Part shown: positions 16,629 through 26,118 of the stretch, piece by piece | How positions within the stretch are numbered: the stretch's first letter is position 1 | Layout of the letters: each line of letters starts with the position of its first letter | From: a virus | DNA: 26,118 nt | Virus record (IMG/VR): IMGVR_UViG_3300035698_003233 | Coordinates: 1-26,118 of that record | Reading direction: 5' to 3' (one strand) | Made by a program: the position numbers and the translations under genes | Notes under the pieces: model-generated | The model's database searches: none | The model's input: only the letters and a program-made list of their open reading frames with translations | What the model was told of the DNA's origin: nothing

Positions 16629-16629
16629 A

Positions 16630-16662
16630 ATTTATATTCTCCTATTCACAAATTAACACCAA
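16630..16662 (-). promoter_or_regulatory. Shared 33-bp leader upstream of capsid gene
   Basis: These 33 bases immediately before the capsid start are identical to 21106-21138 before the 189-residue probable decoration gene. The block includes the ribosome site (GGAGA) and an AU-rich spacer. It sits directly against the scaffold stop. It is probably a translation-enhancing leader copied between two high-copy structural genes. Confidence 0.8.
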
Positions 16663-21104: not shown

Positions 21105-21105
21105 G

Positions 21106-21138
21106 ATTTATATTCTCCTATTCACAAATTAACACCAA
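21106..21138 (-). promoter_or_regulatory. Shared 33-bp leader upstream of the 189-aa gene
   Basis: Identical to 16630-16662. It contains the Shine-Dalgarno and AU-rich spacer of the 189-residue gene. Sequence identity ends sharply on the upstream side (AAATTC here against AATTAT before capsid), so the block itself, not a larger region, was copied or conserved. Confidence 0.8.
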
Positions 21139-21157: not shown

Positions 21158-22717
21158 TTAGCGCCTTGTTCTTGTCCGCCGTCTTTGCTGCTTTATAGCA
21201 CGGCTGCGCTGGACTAATCCCTCGCGCTGAGCAAATCGTTCCTCAAAGTCGCTTGGCATTAACCCTGGATATAAATAGATAAACATATAGCCGAAAGCAT
21301 CAAAGAAATGCTCATACCACTGATCTTTCTTATATGTTAATTTATGAACACCCACACTGTTGCCACGTACCTTGTCATACACTAAACCTGTCTCAAAACC
21401 TTCAATCATTAAACCGACTTCAATTTCGCCAGTAACATGATGAGCTTCACCTAACATTGGGTGTAAAATTAGACCAGGATGACCATTAATAAGTTTGCCC
21501 ATAAGTTGCTTAATCGCTCGAACCCTATCAGCAGGACCACTCCGAATACTGCGAACTGCCTTACGGAACCGCTGCTGCAAAATCGTTTGGGCAGGAGGCG
21601 CTGTTCCTTGACCGTTGACCATAGCCCCTGCTGGGTCACAATAGATCCTGTAGTCAAACCCTGGGAACTCTCGCTCCCTGATCTCAGCGATCCTGTCCAT
21701 AAACAGGTATAAATCCTCATCTACGCCCATAACTGCCTTATGGAGAATTAAACTACCTATCGGCGAACGCTGACCACATACCCACGCTGGATGGTGACCA
21801 CCAAAGTCCCAGCCCTCTTCTAAAGGCACATCTGCTAATACACCGTACTCTTTATATGGTTTGCAATACGTTTCCTTTCTAAAGTCTTGGAACACTGGCT
21901 TACCTACTGGTAACAACCACTTCAGGTTATACTCCACCTGATAAGCTAACTCGCCCTCGGTCTTCTTGACATCCGCTATCCACTCTTCACTGCGCTTGGC
22001 AGGGTCAGCGGTGTGGTGCACATACATAACACAGTGACCTCTAGTGTTACGCTGCTCTGTTACACCTTCCATGATCTGGATAGGTTCAAAGTCCATATCC
22101 AACTCCTTCCTCCCTAAATCCTCATACAAACTCTTCGGCACTGGCGTACTGTTGATAATCAACTTCGCTATCGGGCCCTTAGCTGCTGCCATCGCTGACC
22201 TAAGCGTAGCCTCTTGGTTCTCTTGGAACCCAAACTCATCTAACCAAACCCGCGTGAATGTCTTACCCCTCATCTTGTTACTCGTACTTGCCGTAGCTAT
22301 AATACGACTCACCATTGCTTCATTAATGATTGTCAGCCGCTTAATCACTAACTTAGGCCATGGGTAATCCTTCGATAACCTCTCATACAAAGGGGCTATC
22401 CGTGTCTCTAAAAGATCCGCCGCATCTTCCTCATTCTGGTTCATCACGCCCAAACGCACGTTCTTCTGGAATAAAACCATCCAAAGAAAATAAGCCGCAA
22501 AATAATGAGTGAAAAACATCTGCCGTGACTTGACGATCACTATGTGCTTATTCGCCCTCACTGCCTTATCTACCTCCCTCAGATAACGCATACGAGGAGC
22601 TAAACGGATCTCTCCTGAACCCTCATCTGTTGTCCGAATACAATCAAATAAAAAATCAATAAACGAGTACTTCCATCTCGCCATATCCTTTGCTAGTTCT
22701 TCTGCACTCTTACTCAC
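21158..22717 (-). CDS. terL: Terminase large subunit (DNA-packaging ATPase/nuclease)
   Basis: The 519-residue protein starts at GTG 22717 (MSKSAEELAK), overlapping the end of the upstream small gene by 8 bp. ATPase motifs: a variant Walker A IVKSRQMFFTH (about 61-71), Walker B RVWLDEFGF (156-163, with Asp160-Glu161) and a coupling motif INSTP (188-192). Nuclease motifs of the RNase H fold: WDFGG (Asp304), YCDPAG (Asp361) and a third acidic candidate in FFDAFGY (Asp473). The C-terminus is strongly basic (RSRAIKQQRRRTRTRR). It pumps DNA into the procapsid through the portal and cuts unit lengths. It is the most secure assignment in the window and fixes the phage nature of the region. Confidence 0.93.
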   Translation of the reverse strand: MSKSAEELAKDMARWKYSFIDFLFDCIRTTDEGSGEIRLAPRMRYLREVDKAVRANKHIVIVKSRQMFFTHYFAAYFLWMVLFQKNVRLGVMNQNEEDAADLLETRIAPLYERLSKDYPWPKLVIKRLTIINEAMVSRIIATASTSNKMRGKTFTRVWLDEFGFQENQEATLRSAMAAAKGPIAKLIINSTPVPKSLYEDLGRKELDMDFEPIQIMEGVTEQRNTRGHCVMYVHHTADPAKRSEEWIADVKKTEGELAYQVEYNLKWLLPVGKPVFQDFRKETYCKPYKEYGVLADVPLEEGWDFGGHHPAWVCGQRSPIGSLILHKAVMGVDEDLYLFMDRIAEIREREFPGFDYRIYCDPAGAMVNGQGTAPPAQTILQQRFRKAVRSIRSGPADRVRAIKQLMGKLINGHPGLILHPMLGEAHHVTGEIEVGLMIEGFETGLVYDKVRGNSVGVHKLTYKKDQWYEHFFDAFGYMFIYLYPGLMPSDFEERFAQREGLVQRSRAIKQQRRRTRTRR

Positions 22718-22886: not shown

Positions 22887-23143
22887 AAACCATACCCATC
22901 CTCTATATCTATAATACCGATCTCACGAGTATAAACCACATACAATTCCTCGCGATTAAACTGACGCATCGGCATCGTAAACCGTGGCTCCACACCATGC
23001 TGCGCAATAATACCCAACATCCGCTCTCGATCACCTATATACAACATATACTCAGGGGCTTCAAACACCAACACAATCACGTCTAACACTGGAGCTGCAT
23101 CATGGATGTATGAAACACACTCCTTAAATAAATAACTACTCAT
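22883..23143 (-). CDS. Hypothetical protein, 86 aa
   Basis: Begins MSSYLFKECVSYIHDAAPVLDVIVLVFEAPEY, with a hydrophobic strand at about 20-28, then a helix RERMLGIIAQHG and a last strand pair EELYVVYTREIGIIDIED. The layout is a compact alpha/beta fold. It starts at ATG 23143 in an ATGA overlap with the zinc-finger gene and overlaps the following 58-residue gene by 4 bp. I do not recognise the family. The neighbours place it in a small packaging-linked operon ahead of the terminase. Confidence 0.6.
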   Translation of the reverse strand: MSSYLFKECVSYIHDAAPVLDVIVLVFEAPEYMLYIGDRERMLGIIAQHGVEPRFTMPMRQFNREELYVVYTREIGIIDIEDGYGL

Positions 23144-23445
23144 AACAAATCATTCCCCTTCGCCCGCTTGCGTACCCTGTAACAAGCCTGACAATAAAGA
23201 GCGTAAGCGTCCTGATGCTCCACCCCACACTTTTGACAAATCTTCACCTTTTTGGTGGCGATGCCTGTCTCTGTGCGCTTTTTGGCTTGAATTGACCGTA
23301 TCTCCTTCCTATCAATCTCTCGACACTTCTCTGAACAGAATCGTAGATACCGCCCCTGTGCGCCCTGAAAATACCCATGGTATCTAGCCTGTAGAAACGA
23401 CTCGCCGCATATCTTACAGTCCTTCTCTATAATATCTTTAATCAT
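23140..23445 (-). CDS. Double zinc-ribbon protein, 101 aa
   Basis: ATG 23445 is chosen; a TTG one codon earlier is also in frame. Two zinc-binding clusters are visible. The first is CKIC, a spacer with aromatic and basic residues, then FCSEKC (about residues 9-12 and 36-41), the treble-clef pattern also seen in HNH-type proteins. The second is CQKC (about 70-73), then EHQDAYALY, then CQAC (about 85-88). There is no HNH catalytic pattern after either, and the end is basic (RVRKRAKG), so DNA or RNA binding is more likely than cutting. It is the second zinc protein in this operon, and its second cluster matches the neighbouring 57-residue protein. Confidence 0.65.
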   Translation of the reverse strand: MIKDIIEKDCKICGESFLQARYHGYFQGAQGRYLRFCSEKCREIDRKEIRSIQAKKRTETGIATKKVKICQKCGVEHQDAYALYCQACYRVRKRAKGNDLL

Positions 23446-23500
23446 CAAACACCAGTATCACTATAAACACTAAACCTATCGCACATATTAACTCAATCAT
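23438..23500 (-). CDS. Possible 20-residue hydrophobic peptide
   Basis: A short frame MIELICAIGLVFIVILVFDD lies between two zinc-protein genes, overlapping both ends. It is almost entirely one membrane-spanning segment with an acidic tail. It overlaps the previous gene's last codons, and its stop lies inside the next gene's start. It may be a chance frame, and I see no dedicated ribosome site beyond GAAG a few bases upstream. Confidence 0.25.
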   Translation of the reverse strand: MIELICAIGLVFIVILVFDD

Positions 23501-23666
23501 CCTTCTTAACATCTTCTTCCCACCAATTACGGAACACCAGGGGCTCCGCTAACATAGCCCGATACGCCTTCTCCTTAACACGCCAAGCTGCCTGATAACA
23601 CTTACCGCACACCCGCGTATACCCATCTGCATGCTCTATACCGCATGTCTCACACTTCAACTTCAT
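23493..23666 (-). CDS. Small zinc-ribbon protein, 57 aa
   Basis: ATG 23666 makes an ATGA overlap with the upstream 233-residue gene. The N-terminal half is a zinc ribbon: CETC (residues 5-8), GIEHADGYTRV, then CGKC (20-23). The rest is an amphipathic helix with aromatic and acidic ends (AYRAMLAEPLVFRNWWEED). The CxxCGxEHxDxY...CxxCY spacing is shared with the second cluster of the next gene's product, so the two are probably paralogues. Small ribbon proteins in phages often bind nucleic acid or host polymerase, but I cannot tell the partner here. Confidence 0.65.
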   Translation of the reverse strand: MKLKCETCGIEHADGYTRVCGKCYQAAWRVKEKAYRAMLAEPLVFRNWWEEDVKKDD

Positions 23667-24364
23667 TCTACTAACTCATACTCCGTACACTCTATTAAAC
23701 CTACTGGCATACGCTCCGCTGCTTCCATTATCGCCATAAACTGCTCCGTCGGGCCAATCTCTATATGCTTCTTCTCTACTAACTCACCTGTAACCTGCGC
23801 CAACAACCTACCTAACTCCGTAAACGCCTTCAACGCTTCCTTCGCCGTTAACTCATCACTCTCTAAACCCTCCAACGCCTTACGACCTAAACGCTTCACT
23901 ATCGGACGCAATTGCGCTTCCACCTTCACGTCAACTACTGCGAAATCCCCCACTAAACCACTGATCTGACCCAATACCCACTTGCGCTCTGCTAAAAATC
24001 CACGACGCGCTGACATCAACTGCAAACTCTTTGCCTCTACCTTCAACTGACGACTCGCATCAACGGCACTAACTCCGCTGATATGCAAACCCAATGCGCG
24101 TAAACTCTCTGGCTCCCAATCTGCATAACGCTTCGATAGACCCTTCCACAGCTCGTCCTTCACTAACTCTACTGTATTCGCTGGTACTGAGCCTATCTGC
24201 ACATCCTCCAGCGCACCATTAATGGCCTTATCTACAAAACCATCCACCGTTAAACCAAAAGCCACTATACCTGCCTCAAATCCTGTCTCAGACTGTAAAC
24301 GTAATAACGCTCCCTCGCCGTCACCACTCAATAACGCCTCCCTAGCTCTTTTAATACTACTCAT
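23663..24364 (-). CDS. Putative terminase small subunit, 233 aa
   Basis: Starts at ATG 24364 (MSSIKRAREALLSGDGEG) in an ATGA overlap with the RHH-like gene. It is mainly helical. An N-terminal helical block contains FGLTVDGFVDKAINGALEDV, and a mid region has a possible helix-turn-helix ISGVSAVDASRQLKVEAKSL (about 95-114). The later part has KEALKAFTELGRLLAQVTGELVEKKHIEIG, which resembles the closing segment of many small terminases (a helix of the ALKALELLGKHLGL type, then a VEI strand). The position shortly upstream of the large terminase supports this. I do not see an unambiguous family signature, so this stays a candidate. The alternative is a DNA-binding regulator. Confidence 0.45.
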   Translation of the reverse strand: MSSIKRAREALLSGDGEGALLRLQSETGFEAGIVAFGLTVDGFVDKAINGALEDVQIGSVPANTVELVKDELWKGLSKRYADWEPESLRALGLHISGVSAVDASRQLKVEAKSLQLMSARRGFLAERKWVLGQISGLVGDFAVVDVKVEAQLRPIVKRLGRKALEGLESDELTAKEALKAFTELGRLLAQVTGELVEKKHIEIGPTEQFMAIMEAAERMPVGLIECTEYELVE

Positions 24365-24726
24365 GCACCCTGCAACTCCTTGATACGATTAAAAAACACA
24401 TCATTCGCCTCATCTGGAACCCTCTTGCCAGACTCATATAGATCATTCCTATAATCTTCCCAATTCTTCTCAAGCTCTTGCAATGTCTCACTAGTAGCTA
24501 CATAACGACCGTGCTTCACCCATAACTCGTCTAACTCCCAACTCGATGCGGATGTAACCCCTACTGAGAATGCCGCTCCGAAATATGCCGCCAATGCCTC
24601 CTTCAACACCACACTCTTCGTCTTACCGCTTCGCTTGATCTTCGTCGCCATCTCTAACGATATCCTTCCACATATCGGAACCGTACATCCGCGGGCTATC
24701 TCTAAATCTATTGTAATCTCTGTCAT
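24361..24726 (-). CDS. Ribbon-helix-helix-like DNA-binding protein, 121 aa
   Basis: The frame extends 20 codons further upstream, but ATG 24726 is chosen because a good promoter lies inside that extension. N-terminal strand TEITIDLEIARGCTVPICG is followed by an RHH-like run: RISLEMATKIKRSG (about 21-34) and SVVLKEALAAYFG (about 38-50), joined by a KTK turn. This matches the strand-helix-helix layout of small repressors of the MetJ/Arc superfamily, with the basic turn and the hydrophobic second helix. Residues 60-121 are a helical C-terminal part (ETLQELEKNWEDYRNDLY). RHH proteins bind short palindromes, and palindromes overlap this gene's own promoter, so autoregulation is likely. The gene heads the ATGA-linked chain that runs to the terminase. 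Confidence 0.6.
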   Translation of the reverse strand: MTEITIDLEIARGCTVPICGRISLEMATKIKRSGKTKSVVLKEALAAYFGAAFSVGVTSASSWELDELWVKHGRYVATSETLQELEKNWEDYRNDLYESGKRVPDEANDVFFNRIKELQGA

Positions 24727-24732
24727 CTGTCT

Positions 24733-24761
24733 ATAGTAGCACAACTGTGTATTAAATACAA
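24733..24761 (-). promoter_or_regulatory. Leftward sigma70 promoter before the RHH-like gene
   Basis: -35 TTGTAT (24761-24756), a 17-base spacer, extended -10 TGCTACTAT with core TACTAT (24738-24733), then AGACAG and the ATG at 24726. +1 falls at or beside the start codon, so the mRNA is predicted to be leaderless. The palindrome 24748-24760 overlaps the -35 and spacer. Confidence 0.65.
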
Positions 24762-24975
24762 GCGAAATAAATAAATAAATACTCACCTCTCGTAATATAT
24801 ACTCACATTCACGTACTTAATACACTTATTACACGTTGAATACACGGCAAAATATACTGAATACTTTAAAAATGTCGAAAATTAATACAAAAATCAAGTA
24901 TTTAATACTCAATAACGTGTAATAAATACACGGCAAACTGTATGCAAATAGCGAAAAATGTATGTAATAAATACA
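24748..24975. repeat. Array of 13-bp palindromic operator-like sites
   Basis: Perfect palindromes TGTATTAAATACA (24748-24760) and AGTATTTAATACT (24897-24909), one-mismatch copies TGTAATAAATACA at 24918-24930 and 24963-24975, and a weaker CGTACTTAATACA at 24812-24824. Half-site AATAC also occurs at 24839, 24860 and 24884. Centre-to-centre spacings of 64, 85 and 21 bases fit whole helical turns, but 45 does not. They look like binding sites for a dimeric protein, probably the RHH-like product. Confidence 0.6.
24826..24937. repeat. 12-bp inverted repeat with 13-bp direct repeats
   Basis: TTATTACACGTT at 24826-24837 and its exact reverse complement at 24914-24925, each followed by the direct repeat AATACACGGCAAA at 24839-24851 and 24925-24937. 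They lie inside the AT-rich operator array and may be part of the same regulatory or replication-origin structure. Confidence 0.7.
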
Positions 24976-25035
24976 TATAAATATATAGGTAAATACCATA
25001 CAAAATTAGGTGGTAATTAACATAAACAACCGAAA

Positions 25036-25225
25036 GTGGGAGGGCCCACATTTGCCGAGGTGGCGGATATTAGCGGCCGAAGGCGGGGCGCACGTGGGGG
25101 CTGGCGAGAGAGGAAGGGGGGGGTTTCCAGTGATTGAGCGGGATTGATTAACGCGCCGCTGGCAGGGTGGCAGGGCAGATTTGACCTCATTAAGGGGATT
25201 GGGGGTATTCAGAGGGATTGCGGGG
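25036..25225 (+). other. G-rich block on the plus strand
   Basis: About 190 bases with many G-tracts, including a G8 run near 25117, a GTGGG-CCCAC hairpin near 25036-25049 and a GGCAGGGTGGCAGGGCAG repeat near 25161-25178. Composition is sharply different from the AT-rich array next to it. It is a candidate for an origin, packaging site or transferred segment. Confidence 0.5.
25194..25225 (+). promoter_or_regulatory. G-quadruplex-type motif overlapping the -35
   Basis: Four G-tracts of 4, 5, 3 and 4 bases (25194, 25201, 25214, 25222) with loops of 3, 8 and 5 bases. The last loop and tract contain the -35 box of the small-RNA promoter, so folding of this strand could block or tune that promoter. 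Confidence 0.55.
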
Positions 25226-25246
25226 TTTAGTTAATGGCTGTATAAT
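25218..25246 (+). promoter_or_regulatory. Rightward promoter of the small RNA
   Basis: -35 TTGCGG (25218-25223), a 17-base spacer and a perfect -10 TATAAT (25241-25246), followed by AGTAGG. Predicted start near 25253. The -10 is part of an 11-base box, TATAATAGTAG, that recurs at 26020 (plus) and 2892 (minus). Confidence 0.75.
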
Positions 25247-25252
25247 AGTAGG

Positions 25253-25400
25253 GCAGTCAAGCTCCCATCACGAACGCTCTTCAATGACAGCTCCCTTACA
25301 AGGGTAGGCATACGGTCCGCCTATCGAGTAGCAAAAGCCAGAAACTCGAATTCAACCGAATAAATAGAATTAAACAGCGGGTAATTAACCCGCATTTTTT
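25253..25400 (+). ncRNA. Structured small RNA, about 148 nt, family unknown
   Basis: The unit has its own promoter, no significant reading frame and an intrinsic terminator. Hairpins seen: CCCT/AGGG (25293-25304), TAGGC/GCCTA with a nine-base loop (25305-25323), TCGAGT/ACTCGA with a 14-base A-rich loop (25324-25349), then the terminator stem. The first 40 bases repeat AGCTCCC twice (25260 and 25290). I tried tRNA, tmRNA, hammerhead and common riboswitch layouts and none fits. It could regulate the neighbouring rightward gene or a host or phage mRNA. A seven-codon frame starting near 25284 (ATG ACA GCT CCC TTA CAA GGG TAG) has no ribosome site. Confidence 0.65.
25377..25400 (+). terminator. 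Intrinsic terminator of the small RNA
   Basis: GCGGGT (25377-25382), loop AATTA, ACCCGC (25388-25393) and then A plus six T (25395-25400). A perfect six-pair GC-rich stem with a T-tract is a strong rho-independent terminator on the plus strand. Confidence 0.88.
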
Positions 25401-25996: not shown

Positions 25997-26030
25997 GTTA
26001 CATCTTAACAGTAGTGTGGTATAATAGTAG
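25997..26030 (+). promoter_or_regulatory. Rightward promoter before the 26078 gene
   Basis: Extended -10 TGGTATAAT with core TATAAT at 26020-26025, followed by AGTAG. A -35 GTTACA (25997-26002) lies 17 bases upstream and matches four of six consensus bases. Predicted start near 26032, giving a 46-base leader with AGAGGA (26067-26072) before the ATG. Confidence 0.65.
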
Positions 26031-26077: not shown

Positions 26078-26118
26078 ATGGAAAAAATAAAATTTTACAG
26101 TCGTCACGAAGTGACGCA
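26078..26118 (+). CDS. Start of a rightward gene, cut off by window
   Basis: ATG 26078 has AGAGGA five bases upstream and lies 46 bases after a predicted transcription start. Thirteen complete codons are visible: MEKIKFYSRHEVT. It is the only plus-strand gene supported here and marks a module read in the opposite direction to the virion genes. Bases 26102-26116 form a perfect six-base inverted repeat inside it (CGTCAC/GTGACG around GAA). Too little is visible to propose a function. Confidence 0.7.
   Translation, partial: MEKIKFYSRHEVT

Follow-up and report, generated by a model that had tools for sequence, protein, structure and literature searches.

Ribbon-helix-helix (RHH) repressors of viruses are reported to occupy sites that extend over their own promoters, with degenerate sites filled from distal high-affinity ones (PMC5569661). 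The phage locus described here resembles the systems of viral SvtR, AvtR and F55 and of plasmid CopG in combining a small protein with several AT-rich inverted or tandem sites that overlap the promoter of its own gene, and it would resemble them in being filled from the strong, distal sites (PMC5569661). Unlike those systems, which have one to a few sites, it has 12, set in a strict lattice of two turns, and stands at the start of a packaging operon, and the RHH nature of its protein is putative. RHH centromere proteins bind comparable promoter-overlapping iteron arrays (PMC5016525): at parC-ParR of pSK41 and R1 and at parS-omega of pSM19035, which are bound by RHH dimers and autoregulated, tandem iterons likewise lie upstream of or over the promoter. 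Here, in contrast, the units are quasi-palindromic with 10-bp gaps, and a phage packaging operon follows. HicB proteins autorepress via palindromic operators in their own promoters, which they contact with HTH or RHH domains (PMC10865869). Iteron replication origins have in common with our array a period of about 21-22 bp, a single direction and AT richness, but they differ from its quasi-palindromic units placed on a promoter. The gene order recalls the late operon of Burkholderia phage BcepC6B, in which a small annotated repressor gene directly precedes TerS and TerL. Its product, gp01, was considered as a relative and is dissimilar to our 121-aa protein; the array motif was not apparent in the preceding 175 bases.

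The window, by which we mean the whole stretch of DNA analysed (26,118 bases), is a full IMG/VR virus record of an unclassified bacterial virus, classed as a linear fragment without end repeats. All clear genes up to position 24726 are transcribed leftward, beginning with the 121-aa gene, the 233-aa gene, small zinc-ribbon-like genes and the large terminase, and continuing with a portal or head-tail adaptor candidate, scaffold and capsid candidates, and tail and collagen-like fibre genes. To the right of 24726, about 1.35 kb contains no convincing gene before a rightward gene that starts near 26078, and the array lies inside this non-coding gap between divergent operons. The early region, the expected home of an initiator, main repressor or motor gene, is absent from the contig.

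The array (Table 1) has a period of about two helical turns, points in one direction throughout and is 74% AT. Between 24755 and 24992, its half-site AATAC occurs 10 times on the + strand, with successive gaps of 23, 41, 20, 21, 24, 20, 21, 45 and 22 bp. All nine gaps correspond to one or two lattice steps (1.4 expected; matched by none of 20,000 random placements), and the Rayleigh R of the lattice was 0.938, a value that a fraction of only 0.0002 of random placements reached when every period between 9 and 30 was allowed. The two vacant lattice positions hold TATAC (24798) and AATAG (24947), which brings the total to 12 units. A T at position -2 is present in 11 of 11 clear units, and the left half-site GTA-T is matched at 33 of 44 positions, compared with about 12 expected and with no value as high in 20,000 resamplings; the baseline per AATAC was 1.12 of 4 in shuffles and 1.10 of 4 elsewhere in the window. 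Because of this excess of left half-site matches, we regard each unit as a quasi-palindrome in which one arm is strong and the other weak. A coding tandem repeat was ruled out because the spacings of 20, 21, 22, 23, 24, 41 and 45 do not keep to multiples of 3. The rest of the window contains no second non-coding lattice of this kind, and the same lattice detector, run on 1.5 Mb of other loci, returned only lattices of the coding-repeat type, with periods of 15 or 18 bp, and, in HTVC104P, a single weaker case in AT-rich sequence.

The first-pass annotation had described this region as a set of 13-bp palindromes of one type with spacings of 64, 85, 21 and 45. These values are exact, and they equal 3, 4, 1 and 2 steps of the 21.45-bp lattice; the sites are real but the description was incomplete, as the five palindromes are those members of the 12-unit lattice that have two good arms. 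Five 11-mers with at most one mismatch from GTATTWAATAC occur in the region, compared with a mean of 0.08 in dinucleotide shuffles, and at least five occurred in 0 of 2000 shuffles. Palindromes of any type are ordinary here (six of 13 bp with at most one broken pair, a count equalled in 109 of 2000 shuffles). The excess therefore concerns palindromes of one type and not palindromes generally, and for the same-type sites the shuffle tests rule out chance palindromes arising from AT richness. Outside 24727-25000, the window holds just two more 13-mers with at most two mismatches from the motif.

The predicted +1 of the leftward promoter at unit 1, position 24726, is the A of the ATG of the 121-aa gene, which predicts a leaderless transcript, and a Shine-Dalgarno sequence is absent before 24726 (3 of 6 matches, compared with 4-5 of 6 for most other genes). 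Unit 1 overlays all but one of the six -35 bases and extends into the spacer. The earlier placement of a palindrome over the -35 and spacer of an extended -10 promoter is thus borne out by the positions, although this -35 matches the consensus at just 3 of 6 bases. Because there is one unit per 21 bp, any promoter inside the array necessarily overlaps a unit; promoter-like sites in the region number nine, compared with 5.7 expected by chance. Leftward transcription arriving from upstream would be kept out of the array by the weak terminator-like hairpin at its far side.

Table 1. Coordinates of the array, its units and the neighbouring features in the window.
Feature	Sequence	Position	Strand	Remarks
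Tandem array	GTA-nT-n-AATAC (consensus)	24749-24996	+	12 quasi-palindromic 11-bp units (11 clear, 1 degenerate); period 21.45 bp; half-site AATAC always on + strand
13-mer palindrome	TGTATTAAATACA	start 24748		perfect
13-mer palindrome	CGTACTTAATACA	start 24812		2 of 6 pairs broken
13-mer palindrome	AGTATTTAATACT	start 24897		perfect
13-mer palindromes	TGTAATAAATACA	starts 24918 and 24963		1 pair broken
Unit 1	GTATTAAATAC	24749-24759	+	perfect palindrome (13 bp, 24748-24760) over -35 and spacer of leftward promoter
Unit 2	TAAATAAATAC	24772-24782	+	degenerate left half
Unit 3	GTAATATATAC	24792-24802	+	TATAC replaces AATAC
Unit 4	GTACTTAATAC	24813-24823	+	
Unit 5	ACGTTGAATAC	24833-24843	+	
Unit 6	ATACTGAATAC	24854-24864	+	within spacer of second possible leftward promoter
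Unit 7	AAAATTAATAC	24878-24888	+	
Unit 8	GTATTTAATAC	24898-24908	+	perfect palindrome; overlaps IHF-consensus match 24892-24904
Unit 9	GTAATAAATAC	24919-24929	+	top-scoring unit
Unit 10	TATGCAAATAG	24941-24951	+	degenerate, AATAG at 24947; lattice position filled, core broken
Unit 11	GTAATAAATAC	24964-24974	+	
Unit 12	TAGGTAAATAC	24986-24996	+	
Predicted extended -10 promoter	TTGTAT (24761-24756), 17 nt, TACTAT (24738-24733)	24733-24761	-	TGC before -10; predicted from sequence
Second possible leftward promoter	TCGACA-16-TATATT	24851-24878	-	inside array; 10 of 12 consensus matches
Weak terminator-like hairpin		25036-25049	-	poor T-run; far side of array
121-aa gene		24361-24726	-	first gene of leftward operon; possible RHH DNA-binding protein (residues about 13-49); relatives not found
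233-aa gene		23663-24364	-	probable small terminase, from position and HTH-like stretch
Large terminase subunit		21158-22717	-	phrog_2, E 7e-23

The 121-aa product had been proposed to be RHH-like. With the full-length protein, hmmscan against Pfam, PHROGs and NCBIfam gave no RHH family and nothing useful. With trimmed N-terminal fragments, RHH_1 was the sole Pfam family (E 0.11-0.17; 12.4-12.9 bits, compared with a cut-off of 20.5), in a match that spans the two helices and leaves the strand uncovered. Two low-confidence single-sequence AlphaFold2 models (pLDDT 52 and 57) place helices at residues 16-33 and 37-49, which coincide with the RHH_1 helix placement. Because the fold had been proposed ahead of the profile test, the RHH_1 match lends it mild support, though below the Pfam cut-off. 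What stood of the proposal is this sub-threshold match over the helices; a full-length match is absent, as is the strand from both match and models, and the RHH identity of the protein is thus weakly supported. On visual inspection, ISLEMATKIKRSGKTKSVVLKEALAAYF looks like RHH helices A and B, which we note as a lead only.

Searches of IMG/VR with the 121-aa, TerL, capsid, portal and tail proteins found no close relatives, nor did a search of bacterial genomes with TerL or a TerL alignment scan, although the records closest to the window may have been outside the reach of these searches. Distant tail homologues occur in HTVC103P, HTVC104P, Slicky01 and RHph_N3_13, which have the same late/early divergence and a long gap before the terminase genes. 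A homologous array is absent from these gaps and their repeats differ, being TACTTGAAGTA in RHph_N3_13 and of the TAGCCCTT type in Slicky01, neither with a 21-bp lattice. The early/late gap of the Rhizobium phage RHph_N3_13 (37388-38050, with a second locus at 1-800) contains many unannotated copies of its palindrome (CTTGAAG).

A scan of IMG/VR for pairs of the array palindrome 19-47 bp apart returned 50 loci, 47 of which are coding repeats and just three of which are non-coding places. One of the latter is the hicA-hicB toxin-antitoxin promoter of a Lactobacillus prophage, an operator of a class known as autoregulated, where two copies of GTATTTAATAC lie exactly 21 bp apart over the promoter; unlike our array, it has two sites only and unrelated genes, and common descent is not evident. 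The palindrome-pair scan of bacterial genomes gave 18 loci, mostly dispersed repeats of Latescibacterota and Gemmatimonadota, and the remainder included one rcnR operator-like case and the same hicAB locus. Because no general link to RHH genes was seen among these 18 loci, the hicAB case is suggestive only. In the Latescibacterota and Gemmatimonadota MAGs (8 loci), two or three tandem CGTATTTAATACG-type palindromes stand 21 bp apart, mostly in short non-coding stretches and at several places per genome. In MW495066.1 (Microcystis phage MaAM05, 274 kb), a phage-like cassette is surrounded by lepA, proS, ftsH, glgX and purB, and the record resembles a piece of bacterial chromosome.

From the lattice and direction of the array, the way it overlaps the predicted promoter, and the order of the genes, we infer a cooperative multi-site operator that is bound by the 121-aa protein of the first gene and autoregulates the late operon, a reading that we prefer tentatively and rate a little below an even chance. 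The 11-bp quasi-palindromes would be occupied by a small DNA-binding protein that forms dimers, most likely the product of the 121-aa gene and possibly of the RHH type. Because the sites recur every two helical turns, bound dimers would share nearly the same face of the DNA and could line up next to one another. Filling would start at the better sites (units 1, 8, 9 and 11) and extend to the weaker ones, giving a steep on/off response. Occupancy of unit 1 would block the leftward promoter at its -35 and spacer, and the filled array would repress that promoter, turning off the first gene together with the packaging, head and tail operon. Speaking for an operator, the unit on the promoter is a perfect 13-bp palindrome, and the array ends where the small 121-aa gene starts; as expected of an autoregulated array, there are multiple related sites, one of them on the promoter, here a predicted one, of the putative regulator gene.

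Phage operators usually comprise a handful of sites. Twelve sites over 250 bp far exceed what a repressor of a single promoter needs, and because of this surplus we keep an iteron origin, a packaging site and a centromere as alternatives. The autoregulated switch of the packaging and capsid operon suggested by the first-pass annotation survives in part, in that a multi-site operator is the best reading and unit 1 sits on the promoter, but a tandem array also admits roles in replication, packaging or partition. If the operator reading is true, 12 strictly phased sites at the entrance to a packaging operon would make an unusually sharp late switch; alternatively, transcription control would be combined with replication, packaging or segregation. 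In either case, the pairing of the array with the orphan 121-aa protein is compact and open to direct test, and it comes from a phage lineage for which no close relative was found.

A role as an iteron-type replication origin, at which an initiator from the unsequenced early region would bind the 12 iterons and open the AT-rich DNA, we consider unlikely. The period of about 21 bp, single orientation and 74% AT agree with the direct repeats of about 20 bp expected of such an origin, the array contains an IHF-consensus match, and the 1.35-kb gap is where the GC skew changes sign, although this change is confounded with the divergence of the operons. The gap has no DnaA box, no initiator gene was found among the genes of the 26-kb fragment, which is incomplete, and the quasi-palindromic unit and exact promoter overlap better suit an operator. 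That operator could serve another regulator, either an early-region repressor of the phage or a host protein, with the 121-aa gene merely its first target. No observation ties the 121-aa protein to the sites, and the early region with a possible main repressor is missing from the contig; however, the motif is so rare outside 24727-25000 that the window offers no second regulon promoter, and we find this reading quite improbable.

Small terminases form HTH rings that recognise pac sites (PMC4737164), which counts for a pac-like packaging site, where such a ring would wrap the phased repeats before cutting. The array stands some 360 bp ahead of the probable small-terminase gene and shares an operon with the large terminase. 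Nevertheless, quasi-palindromic units fit dimers and not rings, the contig shows no genome end at the array, and the 233-aa protein matched no terminase family, which leaves a packaging site distinctly unlikely. Each turn of a ParR assembly comprises 12 dimers, and omega sites, with 7-10 iterons, extend over promoters (PMC5016525). An autoregulating centromere bound by the 121-aa protein as a ParR/omega-like partner would account for tandem iterons right before the promoter of a putative RHH gene, with about one iteron per dimer as in plasmid parC/parS. Against such a partition site, which we rate as very improbable, no ParM, ParA or TubZ-like motor was seen in the fragment, the RHH fold is only putative, and the 121-aa gene heads not a par operon but a packaging operon of zinc-ribbon, terminase, portal and capsid genes. 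A slim chance is also given to a parC-like wrapped complex of twelve dimers of an RHH-like protein of a new family, which would act both as a late-transcription switch and as a mark for packaging or segregation.

At about 25000, the right edge of the array, the GC skew turns from strongly negative to positive. Further to the right, a possible small RNA gene (25218-25400) consists of TTGCGG-17-TATAAT (25218-25246), a 150-nt ORF-free stretch and, at 25377-25393, a terminal hairpin (GCGGGTAATTAACCCGC) with its T-run. The candidate scored better than shuffles on folding (z -2.1), and Rfam gave zero family matches, including for this stretch. The rightward promoter candidates at 25241-25251 and 26020-26030 have TATAATAGTAG in common, and the latter, ahead of the rightward gene that starts at about 26078, includes a complete extended -10 (TGGTATAAT). 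In the leftward operon, the two adjacent zinc-ribbon-like small proteins encoded at 23140-23448 and 23493-23666, with a common CxxC segment (44% over 27 aa, E 5e-6), appear to be products of a duplication. A near-identical leader on the - strand, TGTGAATAGGAGAATATAAAT, precedes both the capsid-candidate gene and a 189-aa gene (16629-16650 and 21105-21126), pointing either to high expression matched between the two genes or to duplication of the leader.
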